The notes under the pieces: model-generated | Told to the model about the DNA's origin: nothing | Seen by the model: the letters and a program-made list of their open reading frames with translations, nothing else | The model's database searches: none | Shown: in pieces, positions 21,979-28,298 of the stretch | How the letters are laid out: each line of letters starts with the position of its first letter | How positions within the stretch are numbered: position 1 is the first letter of the stretch | Program-made: the position numbers and the translations under genes | Virus record (IMG/VR): IMGVR_UViG_3300009620_000025 | Span: 1-32,616 of that record | DNA from: a virus | Reading direction: 5' to 3' (one strand) | DNA: 32,616 bases

Positions 21979-22432
21979 TACCTCTTTAGGTTCTTTTGCC
22001 CCTGCTAGAAAATTCGCGTTTTATGAAATTAAGTCTAGAGATGAGTACTCCGTTGTAGAGGAATTACGTCATTTAAGGTATTTCAGGAAGAAAATACATC
22101 TATTATTCGTATCCCCGTGGGATAAAAGGAGTGGATATCTTCTGAGCTCTCTAAAGGCTCATTATGGGGAGTTTAAACCGGTTTATTCTGATTCAATTAC
22201 GGATTTAGTAAAGGATGGGTCTGAGAACAAATTAGTTTTTGTTGTAAATTCTTGGGATACTCCTGAAATTTTCGCTATGCGGGATGTCTCTGTTCTTGTG
22301 GACACGGTTCCCTCTCTATTAGTTCTTAAAAAAGGAGGAAGGGTTATCCGAGAAGATTATTATTCCTTTTTACTAGATCAATTTTTCAGTGGGGAGACTT
22401 TTAACTCTTTAAGAGAGTTTTTTAGCGAGTAA
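21971..22432 (+). CDS. Thioredoxin-fold protein lacking the catalytic cysteines
   Basis: 153 residues. The pattern fits a thioredoxin fold: strand IHLLFVSPW ending at W50, then a helix (GYLLSSLKAHYGEF), strand LVFVVNSWDTPE, and DTVPSLLVLKKGGRV with the cis-proline candidate P114. At the position of the usual W-C-G-P-C active site the sequence is W50-D-K-R-S54, so both redox cysteines are absent and disulfide chemistry is not expected. Such folds can act as structural partners, for example as polymerase processivity or chaperone factors; a family A polymerase is encoded nearby. That link is inference only. The gene's 3' end overlaps the opposing sigma gene by 24 bases and contains a terminator-like hairpin. 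Confidence 0.55.
   Translation: MNDTSLGSFAPARKFAFYEIKSRDEYSVVEELRHLRYFRKKIHLLFVSPWDKRSGYLLSSLKAHYGEFKPVYSDSITDLVKDGSENKLVFVVNSWDTPEIFAMRDVSVLVDTVPSLLVLKKGGRVIREDYYSFLLDQFFSGETFNSLREFFSE
22403..22423 (+). terminator. Terminator-like hairpin inside the 3' end of the thioredoxin-fold gene
   Basis: AACTCT (22403-22408) pairs with AGAGTT (22414-22419) around a 5-base loop, and the right arm runs into six T residues (22418-22423). It is embedded in the last codons of the gene and in the overlap with the convergent sigma gene, so it would stop + strand transcripts before they run antisense through the sigma gene. Confidence 0.55.
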
Positions 22433-22777
22433 TTCTTTATATTCTTCCATTTTCATACTATAACGTTTATTTTTACTGTATATTAATTTTAAGTTGTTTA
22501 GTATAACTGTTGTGAAATAATTAAAAGCTGTTCCTTGCTCCTTATTGAAATTCTTTAGAATTTTGAAAATGAGAAAAAAACACTCTTGTCTCGCATCGTC
22601 ATAATCAACAGAAAATTTAAAAGTTTGTAAAATATTCGTTATTAGTAAATCTAACATGCTTATAAGTTCATTTTCGACCTCTTTATTAGAAGGGTCTGTA
22701 CTATAGCTCTGTATAAGCTCTTCAAATCTCTTATTATCAATATAGTGTTGTTTTTTCTTTTTTTTCTTTTTAGCCAT
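22409..22777 (-). CDS. 55: Short late-type RNA polymerase sigma factor (T4 gp55-like)
   Basis: 122 residues. After a Lys-rich N-terminus, residues about 15-105 resemble sigma region 2: a helix with NELISMLDLLITNILQTF, then YDDARQECFFLIFKILKNF, then GTAFNYFTTVILNNLKLIYSKNKR. T4 gp55 has the parallel [38 protein letters not shown]. gp55 directs host RNA polymerase to late promoters that consist of only a TATAAATA-type -10 element. This protein is shorter than gp55 (185) and lacks region 4, consistent with -10-only recognition. In T4 gene 55 also lies near 46 and 47, as here. It diverges from the UDG/exonuclease gene by 8 bases. A small ECF-type sigma is the alternative. Confidence 0.68.
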   Translation of the reverse strand: MAKKKKKKKQHYIDNKRFEELIQSYSTDPSNKEVENELISMLDLLITNILQTFKFSVDYDDARQECFFLIFKILKNFNKEQGTAFNYFTTVILNNLKLIYSKNKRYSMKMEEYKELLAKKLS

Positions 22778-22785
22778 CGAGTATT

Positions 22786-23955
22786 ATGAGATCTTTTATC
22801 TCAAGTCCCCCTTCCTTTAGTTTAGGTACGTCTAAAATAAAAGACGTAACTCATTATAATAACAATATTAACTCCGATTCATATAAAAATATTTGTGGAA
22901 ATTGTAAAATTAGTGATTTTAATAGAAGTTTTCACTGTCATCTCCCTGATATATCTACAAAAGTTTCAGAGGATATAGATGTTTTGCTTATAACAGAGAG
23001 CTGGGATGATAATCCTAATGCGTTTACTGGGAAAGCTTCTGAGGAAAAAGAAAGAGGAGTCATTGATCCTGTTTATCTTGGGCGTATGACTCAAACTTTG
23101 AGTTTTGGAATGGATAGGCTCCACGATAGGTTTTCTTTAGAAGAGTGGAAAGAGCCTAAGCCAACGATTAATATGTGTTTTAATGTAGCTGTTAAATGTC
23201 CAGCGGTGAGGGCTTTGCAAGATATAGGAGTTAAAAGTTTGAATTTATGCTCCACTTATATAACAGAAGAGATTAAAACTCTAGGACCTAAGAACATTCT
23301 TCTTTTCGGTCCTTTAGCTATAAAAGCTGTTCTTAAAAAGGGACGAGCTCAGTTTTTATACGGGAAAGTAGTCCATACCGAGATTGACGGACATGAATGT
23401 AAAGTAGGGTGTTTACCTTCCGTAGAAAATCTTAGAATTAGTAATACAGAAATTCAAACACATATTTTTTCTATTTTAACAGACTTCTTTATAAAAGAGA
23501 AGGATTACGATACTATTTTAGAGCATGAGTTTGGAGCTACGGTAATTACAGGATTAACTGAAAAGGATATTCAGAAAGCAGTTGAATACTTGTCGAATAT
23601 TGACTGTAATAAGGTTGCTATTGATATAGAGACTACTGGATTGAATTTTCTTGAAGAGAAGATTACAAGTATTAGTTTAGCCTTTAAATCTGGGGAGGAA
23701 AGGGTGGTAGTAGCCTTGGACGCAGAAACCTTATTCAGAGAGGATATAATGCCTATAATAAAGAAGATTCTAGCTGACCCTTTTCTTGTTAAAATATTTC
23801 ATAACGCCCAGTTTGATACTAAATTTCTTTATAGGGATGGTCTGGAAGTTGTCCCTCCTATAGCGGATACAAAGATTTTTGCCCACCTTTCCAACGAGAA
23901 TGAGCCTAAAAGCCTATCTTTTCTTACTAAAAAGTTTTTTCCCGGCCTTGTTTAA
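22786..23955 (+). CDS. UDG family 4-like domain joined to 3'-5' exonuclease domain (N-terminal part of a split family A DNA polymerase)
   Basis: 389 residues. Residues about 30-225 resemble family 4 uracil-DNA glycosylase as found at the N-terminus of SPO1-type phage DNA polymerases. Four cysteines in the family's Fe-S ligand pattern are present (C37, C40, C138, C155), with LLITESWDDNPNAFTG, NILLFGPLAIKAVL, and CLPSVENLRIS. Where active enzymes have His-Pro, this has Leu210-Pro211, so glycosylase activity is doubtful. Residues about 258-389 are a DEDD exonuclease: D280-I-E282 (DIETTG) and HNAQFD with D344. The third exonuclease motif is missing here but is found at the start of the next frame. 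The frame stops at TAA 23953-23955 and ATG follows in the same phase. Proofreading function is likely if the two parts assemble. Confidence 0.78.
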   Translation: MRSFISSPPSFSLGTSKIKDVTHYNNNINSDSYKNICGNCKISDFNRSFHCHLPDISTKVSEDIDVLLITESWDDNPNAFTGKASEEKERGVIDPVYLGRMTQTLSFGMDRLHDRFSLEEWKEPKPTINMCFNVAVKCPAVRALQDIGVKSLNLCSTYITEEIKTLGPKNILLFGPLAIKAVLKKGRAQFLYGKVVHTEIDGHECKVGCLPSVENLRISNTEIQTHIFSILTDFFIKEKDYDTILEHEFGATVITGLTEKDIQKAVEYLSNIDCNKVAIDIETTGLNFLEEKITSISLAFKSGEERVVVALDAETLFREDIMPIIKKILADPFLVKIFHNAQFDTKFLYRDGLEVVPPIADTKIFAHLSNENEPKSLSFLTKKFFPGLV

Positions 23956-25659
23956 ATGTTAACTATCAGCAACCCCGACGAAGTTGATTGGGCTAATATT
24001 CCTAAGGAAAAACTCCTAATAGGAAATGCCCTCGATTCTTTTATAACGTATAATCTGGTGGATCAGATTAAAATTCCTGCTAACAGCAATCAAGTAGCAA
24101 TTCTTCTATCTAAATGTCTTCCTGTATTTTCTGAATTAGAATATAATGGTTTAGATATAGATTGCGAAAAGCTTAAAACTATTTTAGATAAATTAAAACA
24201 AGAAATAATAGAAATAGAAGATTCTTTAAAAACTTCTCTTCTTGTAGAAAAGTATAAAGATGAAACAGAGACTGATATCTTTAATATAAAATCTAGTAAA
24301 CAGTTGAACGCTTTTTTCAAGTATTCAGAAAGTATTCTAGCCACAACTTTTCTAACTTTTGCGTCGATAGACAAGAGCCTTAAAACAGGTCTTTATTCTT
24401 TTAATGAAGCTAATCTTAAGAAGTTAGAAGCATGGCTTAATGAAGCAGTAAATATAGCTCATGATTCTTCCCACGGAGGAGCAATCCCTCTTCTCTCCCA
24501 GGAAGGAGAAAGCCTAATAGAAGTAGTGAACAGCATTCTTAAATTAAGAGAGTTATACAAGTTAAGAGATTCCTATTTTCAAACTTCTTTAGATGTTATA
24601 GAGAATATAGGAGTTCCAAAGTTGTTTTGCCAGTACAATCTTACAGGGACAGTTACCGGTCGCTTAAGTTGCGAGGCTATGTCTTTTAATAAGAATAAAG
24701 TGGGAGTATCTATGCATACTCTCCCAAGGAATGAGCAGTTTAATATGAGAGACGTGGTAGTTCCTTCCAAAAAGGAAAGAGAGGCTGGAGATTTGTTTGT
24801 TACTATTGATTATTCTTCTATGGAATTACGAGTAATGGCACAGGCTTGTCAGGATATCGAATTATGTGCGGCGTATCAAAACGAAGATTCTGATCTTCAC
24901 ACTATAACTGCTAGTAAAATTTTTGGAAAAGATGCAAGTGACATAACAGCAGAAGAGAGACAGACCGGGAAAATGACTAACTTTCTTACCATCTATGGAG
25001 GAGGTCCTAAAAGATTGGCGGAATCATTAGGGAAACCTCTTTTGGAATGTAAAAGAATCATTAGAGATTATCATAAAGCTTTTCCCGGCATAGATGAATA
25101 TAGGAATAGAGTAGTTTCTTATCTGCGTAGGAATAACCATTCTGTATCTTTATTTGGGCGATATAGACATTTAATTGTTCCCTATAAGGATATTTATGAT
25201 AAATTTGATAAATTTAGAGTAGAAAGACAGGCTGTGAATTCTATTATTCAAAGTACTGCTTCTGATATTCTATTAGTTGCTCTTTTGAATTTCGATATGT
25301 TTATAAAGGAAAAGAATCTCAAAGGGCGAATAGTAGCTACTGTTCACGATTCTATTGAGTTTGTTATGTCTTCTATAGATTTTTTTAAATATTTTCAAGA
25401 GATATTAAACTTGTTCCATCATCCTAACTACGAAAAAGTAGGTATGGCAAATTTATATGAATATGGACCCGGAGGTATGTTAATTACACGTTCTATTGAA
25501 GAAGGATGGACAATTCCTCTAGAGATTGATGTGGAAGTTGGTAGATCTTTTGGTTCTAATATTCCTGTAAAATTTAAAAGAAATAAGGATACTTCCAATT
25601 ATGATATATTAAATCCTGGTGCTATAGTTAATTATGTGAAGGAGCTTTCTGTTGCCTAA
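23956..25659 (+). CDS. Family A DNA polymerase (end of exonuclease domain plus polymerase domain)
   Basis: 567 residues. Residues 1-40 complete the upstream exonuclease: GNALDSFITYNLVDQI with D27 is the third motif that normally follows the HNAQFD segment. Residues about 220-480 are the polymerase palm and fingers: TGRLSC; motif A DYSSMELRVMA (D285); motif B R335-x3-K339-x3-F343-x3-YG; motif C VHDSIEF (D465). F343 corresponds to the Phe that disfavours dideoxynucleotides in E. coli Pol I. Motif C reads HDS where Pol I has HDE. No thioredoxin-binding insertion is obvious. It begins directly at the base after the upstream TAA, in the same frame and without a ribosome site, so it depends on re-initiation or read-through. 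The last bases overlap the TTG start of gp47. Confidence 0.88.
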   Translation: MLTISNPDEVDWANIPKEKLLIGNALDSFITYNLVDQIKIPANSNQVAILLSKCLPVFSELEYNGLDIDCEKLKTILDKLKQEIIEIEDSLKTSLLVEKYKDETETDIFNIKSSKQLNAFFKYSESILATTFLTFASIDKSLKTGLYSFNEANLKKLEAWLNEAVNIAHDSSHGGAIPLLSQEGESLIEVVNSILKLRELYKLRDSYFQTSLDVIENIGVPKLFCQYNLTGTVTGRLSCEAMSFNKNKVGVSMHTLPRNEQFNMRDVVVPSKKEREAGDLFVTIDYSSMELRVMAQACQDIELCAAYQNEDSDLHTITASKIFGKDASDITAEERQTGKMTNFLTIYGGGPKRLAESLGKPLLECKRIIRDYHKAFPGIDEYRNRVVSYLRRNNHSVSLFGRYRHLIVPYKDIYDKFDKFRVERQAVNSIIQSTASDILLVALLNFDMFIKEKNLKGRIVATVHDSIEFVMSSIDFFKYFQEILNLFHHPNYEKVGMANLYEYGPGGMLITRSIEEGWTIPLEIDVEVGRSFGSNIPVKFKRNKDTSNYDILNPGAIVNYVKELSVA

Positions 25660-26671
25660 GAATTATAAAGAAGCAGTTATCATTACTGATTTACACCTAA
25701 GGGATGATATACATCCTAAATATCTCGATGCTCAATTAGCCACTTTAAAGAGAATAGTTACTTCTAAAAAGTATGATTGTGTATTAATTTTAGGAGATAT
25801 TTTTGAGCATAGAACCTCCAAAAGTATAGTTTTAATAAAATTCTATGAATTTCTGAAATCTATTAAAACCGGACGTATTATAATCTTAAGGGGTAATCAC
25901 GATACTGTCTCTAAGACTAACACAACAGAAACAATCTTATCAATGTATGATAATGTGGCAGAAATAGTAGACGATGTATCTGATATTTCTATATTTAAAA
26001 CTCCTTGTACTTTTATCCCTCATTTCGAAGATGACCAGATTTTAGCAAAAGCGGTAAGTAAAACAAAAAATTTGGTGTTTGGTCATTTTGGTATTCACGG
26101 TATGGTTACAAATGGAGGTTATGTATATGAGTCTGTTTTGAAGCCTTCTGATTTCAACAACCGAGGAATCCTCGGTCATATACATGCTCATAAGATTTAT
26201 GAAAACAAGGTTCATATTGTAGGTAATCAATATACGGTTAATTTTGGAGAAGCTAACCAAGAAAAATATTATTATGAGTTAAAGTTTTATAATAACGGAG
26301 AGGTTGATATTTTTCCCAAAAAAGTTAAATTTGGAATAAAACATTTAAATGTTAATATGGAAAATATCCATAAAATTTATAAAAAGTTTAATATTAAAGA
26401 TTTTTTTACTTTGTTGCGAGTGAATATAGATGAGTTGGATATGTTTAAAGAACGAGAAATTAGAAATGAATTGAATAAAAAATATCATTATGATTTATTA
26501 GATTTAAGATTTGATAATATTTTAGATAAAAATTCTTCAAAGTTTTATACTAACAAAAAATTATTTTCAATTAATGAAGGAATTTTAGAAGATTATATAC
26601 AACAAAATGAATCTACTTTTTCTAAAAATGAGTTAAGAAAAACTTTAACTGAAATTTATGATTTTAAATAA
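25652..26671 (+). CDS. 47: Recombination nuclease subunit (T4 gp47 / SbcD / Mre11-like)
   Basis: 339 residues, usual for gp47. It is a metallophosphoesterase that works with gp46 to process DNA ends for recombination-dependent replication and host DNA breakdown. Metal-binding motifs are in order: D13-L-H15 (IITDLHLRDD), GDIFEHR with D49, GNHD (81-84), GHFGIHG, and GHIHAHK. The start is TTG at 25652, seven bases after GGAG (25641-25644) and overlapping the polymerase stop; no better start is near. The C-terminus overlaps the gp46 start by 14 bases, indicating paired production of the complex. Confidence 0.92.
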   Translation: MPKNYKEAVIITDLHLRDDIHPKYLDAQLATLKRIVTSKKYDCVLILGDIFEHRTSKSIVLIKFYEFLKSIKTGRIIILRGNHDTVSKTNTTETILSMYDNVAEIVDDVSDISIFKTPCTFIPHFEDDQILAKAVSKTKNLVFGHFGIHGMVTNGGYVYESVLKPSDFNNRGILGHIHAHKIYENKVHIVGNQYTVNFGEANQEKYYYELKFYNNGEVDIFPKKVKFGIKHLNVNMENIHKIYKKFNIKDFFTLLRVNIDELDMFKEREIRNELNKKYHYDLLDLRFDNILDKNSSKFYTNKKLFSINEGILEDYIQQNESTFSKNELRKTLTEIYDFK

Positions 26672-28298
26672 AATAAAAATTAGAAATTTTTTATCTATAT
26701 CTGAAATTGATTTAGATTTTTCTAAATTTGAGGGGGTTACTTTAATAAAAGGTATAAATAATGATTTTAGTATACCTACCTCTAACGGGAGCGGAAAATC
26801 TGCAATTATAGAAGCTGTTATCTGGGGTTTATTTGGAAAAACTATTCGCAAAACTGTTGAGAAGACTTTATCTCATTTCGTAACTGCTAAAGGATGTTTT
26901 GTAGAATTAGTTGTGAATGATGATATTATTATTAGACGAGGAAAAAAGCCTAGTAAGCTGGAAGTGATTTCTGATGGAAAAAATATCTCTAAAGAATCGG
27001 TCCCAAAGACCCAAGAAGAGTTAGAGAAGTTACTTGATGTTTCTTATAAGTCAACTTTAGCATCTCTAGTTTTCGGACAACATAACTCAGTTAATTTTAT
27101 TGCTTCCTCTCCAGAAGAAAAGAGAAATCTTATACAAAGATATCTTAGCGTTGATAAGATTTTTGAGCTTAGAGACTCTACTTTAAAATTAAAGTCTGGA
27201 GCCAACTCTTCTCTAAAGGAAGAACAAACTAAATTTAATATTTATAAGAAAGAATTGGATTTCATTTCAGAAAAAATGAAAAGAAGTAAAAAAGCTATTA
27301 AGGAAGGATCTTCTCTCTTACAAAATCCAAAAATATTAGACTTGATTAAAAAGAAATCTCTGGAGGAACTATACGACCAGGAGGCGTTTCGAGAAAACTT
27401 GTCATCTGAAATTGCCGACCTTATACGGCAAAAAGAAACGTTAAATAAATTAATCATACAAAATAAAGAATTAATCGATTTTCTTACAAACAGTAAATGT
27501 CAAAATTGCGGTTTTAGGGTGGAAGCTAACACAAAAAAAATGGAAGAAGTAAAAGAAGATTTGGAAGAAATTAGAAGAAAAATAAAAAAAGTAGAAATAT
27601 CTCTCAAGAAGAAATCTAAAGAACATGATAATGTTACAATTCAACTTTCTAATTGTGATTTAGATGTTCTCAGGGATTTGAGTAAAATGGAGAGTGAGCT
27701 TACTTCTTTAAAGGATTCCGAAAAGAGATACAAAGAAATGTATTCTTCGTCAGCGGGAAAAGCTGAGGTTTATAAGAAGAAATATGAATTGTTTAAATTT
27801 TGGGAACGAGCCTTCTCTGAAAAGGGGCTTATAAAGTATATCATTAGAAATGTTTTAGGTTTCTTGAATAAGAGGTGTAACCATTACTTATCTTTTTTGT
27901 CTAATTCTACTTTTAAGATAAATCTTTTAGATGATTTGACTATAGACATTTTCCATGGAACGTGTCAAAAGCATTACGATGTACTATCAGGAGGAGAAAA
28001 AAGGAGACTGGAGATGTCTGTTACTCTTGCTCTTAATGACCTAGCATCTTTGTCTAATAATACCCAGACCGATTTGGTGTTTTTCGACGAAGCCGTCGAA
28101 AATCTTGATACTGAAGGCGTAAAAGGATTTTTCAACTTGCTAAAAGAAATTTCAAAGATTAAAAAGATTTTTGTTATCACTCATAACCAGTACCTTAAGT
28201 CTTTGTTGGACGATATAACCACTATCACTGTGGAGAAAACTGAGAGCAAATCGAAGGTCACAAAAATAGATTATAAGAACAAGTCGAATGGCCTATAA
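26658..28298 (+). CDS. 46: Recombination ATPase subunit (T4 gp46 / SbcC / Rad50-like)
   Basis: 546 residues, close to T4 gp46 (560). SMC-like ATPase partner of gp47. Motifs in order: N-terminal ILNKIKIRNFLSI, Walker A SNGSGKSA (42-49), Q-loop FGQHN, a coiled coil broken by the zinc hook C281-Q-N-C284, second coiled coil, ABC signature LSGGEKRR (443-450), Walker B DLVFFDE (472-478), and a switch His in FVITHNQYL. Two copies dimerise through the hook and bind DNA with two gp47 nucleases. The coiled coil is short, as in phage members. Starts inside the end of gp47. Confidence 0.93.
   Translation: MILNKIKIRNFLSISEIDLDFSKFEGVTLIKGINNDFSIPTSNGSGKSAIIEAVIWGLFGKTIRKTVEKTLSHFVTAKGCFVELVVNDDIIIRRGKKPSKLEVISDGKNISKESVPKTQEELEKLLDVSYKSTLASLVFGQHNSVNFIASSPEEKRNLIQRYLSVDKIFELRDSTLKLKSGANSSLKEEQTKFNIYKKELDFISEKMKRSKKAIKEGSSLLQNPKILDLIKKKSLEELYDQEAFRENLSSEIADLIRQKETLNKLIIQNKELIDFLTNSKCQNCGFRVEANTKKMEEVKEDLEEIRRKIKKVEISLKKKSKEHDNVTIQLSNCDLDVLRDLSKMESELTSLKDSEKRYKEMYSSSAGKAEVYKKKYELFKFWERAFSEKGLIKYIIRNVLGFLNKRCNHYLSFLSNSTFKINLLDDLTIDIFHGTCQKHYDVLSGGEKRRLEMSVTLALNDLASLSNNTQTDLVFFDEAVENLDTEGVKGFFNLLKEISKIKKIFVITHNQYLKSLLDDITTITVEKTESKSKVTKIDYKNKSNGL

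Follow-up and report, generated by a model that had tools for sequence, protein, structure and literature searches.

The window, a 32,616-nucleotide stretch of viral DNA (IMG/VR record IMGVR_UViG_3300009620_000025, positions 1 to 32,616), raises the question of how to read a polymerase locus in which two open reading frames of 389 and 567 amino acids lie in a common frame, with a TAA at 23953-23955 as their sole separator and an ATG at 23956 directly 3' of it. Replicative polymerases with proofreading usually consist of one chain. The initial annotation had described one frame split by a single TAA followed by ATG, with D280/E282 and D344 upstream and D27 downstream, and had considered that two polypeptides assemble, that the stop is read through, or that a mutation or sequencing error broke one gene. 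We confirmed the reading frames, their phase, and all coordinates, as well as the placement of the motifs, with the break falling between exonuclease motifs II and III (Table 1).

The upstream reading frame matches DNA_pol_A_exo1 (PF01612, E=2.8e-16) and the downstream one matches DNA_pol_A (PF00476, E=5.5e-63), while one continuous protein family, phrog_17, covers both halves (536-785 for the upstream half and 795-1242 for the downstream half). The DnaQ-like D-E-D-D carboxylates are complete, with D280, E282, and D344 contributed by chain 1 and D27 by chain 2, and the PF00476 match, together with motifs A, B, and C carrying the catalytic D, R/K, and HD, places the polymerase in family A. We modeled the window halves as one joined chain, using a Gly placeholder for the stop and an alignment of mixed split and single-chain relatives that scatters a few terminal residues of fragments. 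The joined model reached a pLDDT of 84.9 and a pTM of 0.83, with the exonuclease region mostly above 92 across both halves and a less confident loop at the junction (~70-82), and it matched Klenow 1kfd with a Z of 37.3 and an rmsd of 2.6 over 537 residues. Joined in silico as a single chain, the modeled halves complete one Klenow-type fold. The loop at the break position is longer in isolated single-chain phage relatives.

Table 1. Coordinates of the split polymerase and adjacent genes in the window
Feature	Position	Strand	Remark
Upstream half: UDG-like N-terminal domain and exo I/II part of the 3'-5' exonuclease	22786..23955	+	stop TAA
UDG-like region, ~residues 37-235	22894..23490	+	invariant C37, C40, C138, C155 (alignment A5)
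Exo I, D280-I-E282	23623..23631	+	
Exo II, D344	23815..23817	+	
Gene boundary TAA-ATG	23953..23958	+	family norm: overlapping TAATG
Downstream half: exo III helix and complete family A polymerase	23956..25659	+	
Exo III motif GNALD	24022..24036	+	D27 is the fourth exonuclease carboxylate
Polymerase motif A Asp, D285	24808..24810	+	invariant, 55 loci
Polymerase motif B, R335...K339	24958..24972	+	invariant, 55 loci
Polymerase motif C, H464-D465	25345..25350	+	invariant, 55 loci
SbcD-like phosphoesterase	25652..26671	+	phrog_547; homolog near polymerase in 71/89 loci
SbcC-like protein	26658..28298	+	phrog_77, E=1.5e-71; homolog in 60/89 loci

Searches with single proteins returned few relatives, and profile scans were required. 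One relative, L005, shares 26% identity with the window in the exonuclease half and ~33% in the polymerase half, and its break is identical: the first half ends in ...LYFPEKVNDL before the stop, the second half begins MLTIRNPETFDW..., and a 92-codon gene lies between the halves, overlapping both. Scanning with the exonuclease-half profile led to contigs on which the polymerase occupies three genes (UDG/exo I-II, exo III/thumb, and palm/fingers); the middle-piece profile contributed another 80 loci, and a palm/fingers profile, which is independent of the break, gave 367 confirmed relatives, 80 of which were kept. Comparing related genomes for the same junction, as had been proposed for this locus, yielded 89 distinct split loci (81 three-gene, 6 two-gene, and 2 undecided) in which the break is homologous down to ~25-30% identity. 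Since its position is homologous in all 89, the break is not due to chance. The three-gene polymerase of the 81 loci results from a second break, located in the thumb, and the downstream half begins with ATG-Leu in 89/89 loci.

When the scan was anchored on palm/fingers and the exo III motif was not used, 49/49 distinct loci were split. The initial annotation had named relatives with one continuous gene as evidence against a genuine division. We did find such relatives, but only outside the split clade; inside it, none of 164 non-dereplicated loci, selected by their score against the split-type polymerase and with both parts in view, was fused. By this score, single-chain enzymes reach at most 216 bits and full-length split ones at least 419 bits. 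Two apparent cases of exonuclease and middle pieces joined apart from the polymerase (L203 and L222) were bacterial PolA frames out of genome assemblies and were rejected, as was L232, which is the SPO1-like Goe26 and not a clade case. A gap at the second break is rare; in L159 (5483-6021), the exo III/thumb and palm/fingers genes are ~540 nt apart.

On the basis of these comparisons, we consider it very likely that the locus descends from an ancient gene fission in T4-like phages and that the resulting chains assemble into one proofreading polymerase. The clade ancestor would have carried a single-chain UDG-exo-polymerase gene that broke in the loop between the exo II and exo III helices. We infer that most members now make separate polypeptides through coupled re-initiation at an overlapping TAATG (TAAATG in the window). 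Indeed, a 1-nt overlap (TAATG or TGATG) occurs in 45 of the 89 distinct loci, 9 have longer overlaps, 1 has 42 nt between the halves, and 33 have more than 100 nt; the window is the one adjacent case and the only locus with a gap of 0. In 18/34 overlapping or adjacent loci, the first gene contains a Shine-Dalgarno-like 4-mer shortly before the second start, compared to 39/149 control ORFs in the same test; none is evident by eye before the second start of the window.

In 23 of the 33 loci with a gap above 100 nt, an unrelated minus-strand gene separates the exonuclease halves, and here the second half would probably be expressed from its own promoter. A promoter-like box, TAT[TA]ATATAG, precedes the second-half ATG by exactly 12 nt in 16 of these 23 loci, including L097, L117, L128, L129, L133, and L143, where it stands upstream of the exo III gene. 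The box was found at this position in 0/10 other gapped loci and 0/55 overlapping or adjacent loci, and it is rare elsewhere. The 12-nt spacing to the ATG suggests a leaderless transcript. In L091, L112, L116, L118, L132, and L135, the gap is ~486 nt and holds a conserved lipoprotein-like minus-strand gene (TIKHAVGGALGGG) that overlaps the end of the first half, while L097 and L151 have a family 2 glycosyltransferase between the exonuclease halves.

These junctions also bear on whether the TAA is sometimes read as sense, giving a fused proofreading polymerase alongside the separate halves. The window halves are in frame with nothing between them, and an in-frame TAA would permit such a product. 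However, among 55 distinct overlapping or adjacent loci, the halves share a frame in the window alone, every locus retains the N-terminal ATG-Leu, and read-through cannot fuse the halves of the 23 loci divided by a minus-strand gene. Since most halves are out of frame and these 23 are interrupted, read-through, which the initial annotation had left open, is ruled out for the family as a whole. Of the three stops, UAA generally leaks least, and we regard read-through in the window as improbable. Since TAAATG is one base away from the common TAATG, the shared frame of the window is probably incidental.

About equally improbable, in our judgment, is that the upstream half represents what is left of a UDG/exonuclease, decayed or repurposed, with the downstream protein acting alone as an exonuclease-deficient polymerase. 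This explanation draws on the YxxxD Tyr of exo III, which is Gly in every split locus checked, and on the catalytic motif of the UDG-like domain, which appears degenerate by eye. The split enzymes therefore lack the mark of the DEDDy subgroup, a Tyr positioned four residues ahead of the motif III Asp, although it is also missing from several single-chain relatives; since it is replaced, exonuclease activity may be below that of Klenow-type enzymes. On the other hand, the exonuclease carboxylates are invariant on both chains, with D280, E282, and D344 present in 61/61 distinct split loci and the exo III Asp (D27) in 51/51 distinct loci from a scan not using that motif. The claim of exo III conservation rests on this independent palm/fingers scan, because the scan pattern GNA[LYM]D biases it in L089-L168. 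The polymerase catalytic residues are likewise invariant in 55 loci, bar one Phe for Tyr (L005). Median pairwise omega is 0.061, 0.056, and 0.051 across the pieces, ~0.06 for the upstream half, and by this measure all pieces are under purifying selection, which also argues against a remnant. As for the UDG-like domain itself, its PF03167 match is weak, at 12.8 bits in the window (under the 24.3-bit Pfam cut-off) and 26.2 bits in L005 (above it), and its four invariant Cys could be those of a family 4-type Fe-S cluster; the domain may serve a structural role or bind DNA as an Fe-S domain. Together, the break shared by 89 loci, the invariant residues on both chains, and the low omega values favor the option of two assembling polypeptides among those originally proposed.

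We also considered whether a split intron or split intein joins the halves after transcription or translation. Precedents exist in the split-intein polymerase B of phage MIJ3 (PMC6892783) and in the polymerase intron known from SPO1-like phages. However, no intron was matched by Rfam in 10 loci and no intein by Pfam in either half of the window or L005, and at the break the proteins end in an ordinary way and the start codon is conserved. The inserted genes are varied and lie on either strand, comprising glycosyltransferases, short basic or lipoprotein-like proteins (by eye), and others without assignment. No homing endonuclease match was found in ten inserted proteins or P0001, and the window has nothing between its halves. 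We therefore hold splicing of either kind to be very improbable.

The weakest explanation, that a sequencing error or recent point mutation broke one intact gene, finds a continuous gene in distant isolated phages but can practically be dismissed, since the TAA recurs in a second contig, the homologous break is present in 164/164 clade loci with both parts in view, both halves are under purifying selection, and elsewhere the halves differ in frame or have genes between them. The second contig (IMGVR_UViG_3300025274_002201) aligns with the window along 11,701 bases and departs from it at a single one (22601, outside the polymerase genes); it may derive from a related sample and thus weakens the case for assembly error more than it establishes an independent origin. 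From these sequence comparisons, we conclude that the TAA is a natural gene boundary and neither a sequencing error nor the mark of a broken gene. They also leave no need to invoke a genome-wide reassignment of stop codons.

To return to ancient fission, in the palm/fingers tree a branch with an SH-aLRT of 100 divides all split enzymes from the rest; they adjoin the single-chain UDG-exo-pol phage enzymes, and the window clusters with the two-gene L162 and L165. This topology fits one early exonuclease break, with the thumb break arising later or being secondarily lost in some lineages. The window also encodes a T4-like head protein, head protease, tail sheath, NrdA, dUTPase, and DnaB, and a T4-like head protein was found in 11/14 other clade records. 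On the minus strand directly before the polymerase genes (22409-22777), a small ORF has a weak, below-cut-off match to sigma-70 region 2. One member, L169 (G001:C3), lies on a 130-kb contig of a Prochlorococcus single-cell genome; a T4-like head protein is encoded on the same contig as its split polymerase, which suggests that the host of this member is a cyanobacterium. A tblastn search of 50,697 records of isolated phages gave no close match to the exo III/thumb piece, and the clade is large and widespread and apparently uncultured.

The clade has one polymerase fold encoded by two or more genes and in this sense belongs with other split polymerases. Its nearest tree relatives, Serbin, Margaret, JP1, P11VFA, MW202455, and the SPO1-like LysYB1, have the same domain order but in one gene, with a longer loop at the break position. 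Bacillus phage Goe26 (SPO1-like) also has its polymerase gene in pieces along the genome but keeps exonuclease and thumb within one piece, and polymerase genes of the SPO1 group are known for group I introns. The Aeromonas phages 25 and 44RR similarly make a replicative polymerase from two genes, a T4-related split gene 43 (43A/43B) whose two chains co-purify and are active (PMC2988022). Their enzyme is of family B, with a seg homing endonuclease or an untranslated spacer at the break; the window clade is of family A, is broken through the exonuclease site, and has no homing endonuclease match in ten inserts. The OM43 phages MEP401 and MEP402 have a split family A PolA in two genes with a small gene between (PMC10580990), but they belong to another lineage without the UDG domain, and their break lies just before palm motif A and leaves the entire exonuclease in the first gene. 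Rhodothermus phage RM378, a Far-T4 phage (PMC4360716) with a T4-like capsid, had been offered as a precedent with separate exonuclease and family A polymerase genes. The genes are indeed separate, ~57 kb apart, but both are family B (polymerase p092, PF00136; exonuclease p024, PF03104), and p024 as read from its sequence holds all three exonuclease motifs; we therefore rejected RM378 as an instance of this split. Jumbo phages, too, are known to have split enzymes of replication or transcription (PMC7824862). Split phage polymerases as such were thus already known, but in the part of the literature that we searched, neither a family A enzyme in three chains nor a break that runs through the exonuclease site was described.

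Under ancient fission, the chains would bind each other non-covalently, and a single 3'-5' exonuclease site would arise from D280, E282, and D344 of chain 1 together with D27 of chain 2; we infer that this site would be active in proofreading. It would sit on a family A polymerase whose second chain is itself broken in the thumb in most members, giving three chains. In this clade, the exonuclease active site would thus be common to two gene products, with the polymerase part often split again, and in genomes of this kind automatic annotation will overlook the small exo III/thumb gene or label it wrongly. It is conceivable, if rather unlikely, that proofreading is detachable, with the exonuclease site present only while the UDG-like/exo-N chain is bound and fidelity set by the supply of that chain. 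If true, this would be most relevant where a minus-strand gene divides the halves and the polymerase half has its own promoter-like box. The clade would offer a natural setting in which to study how finely a polymerase can be subdivided without losing its function, and whether proofreading can be switched.
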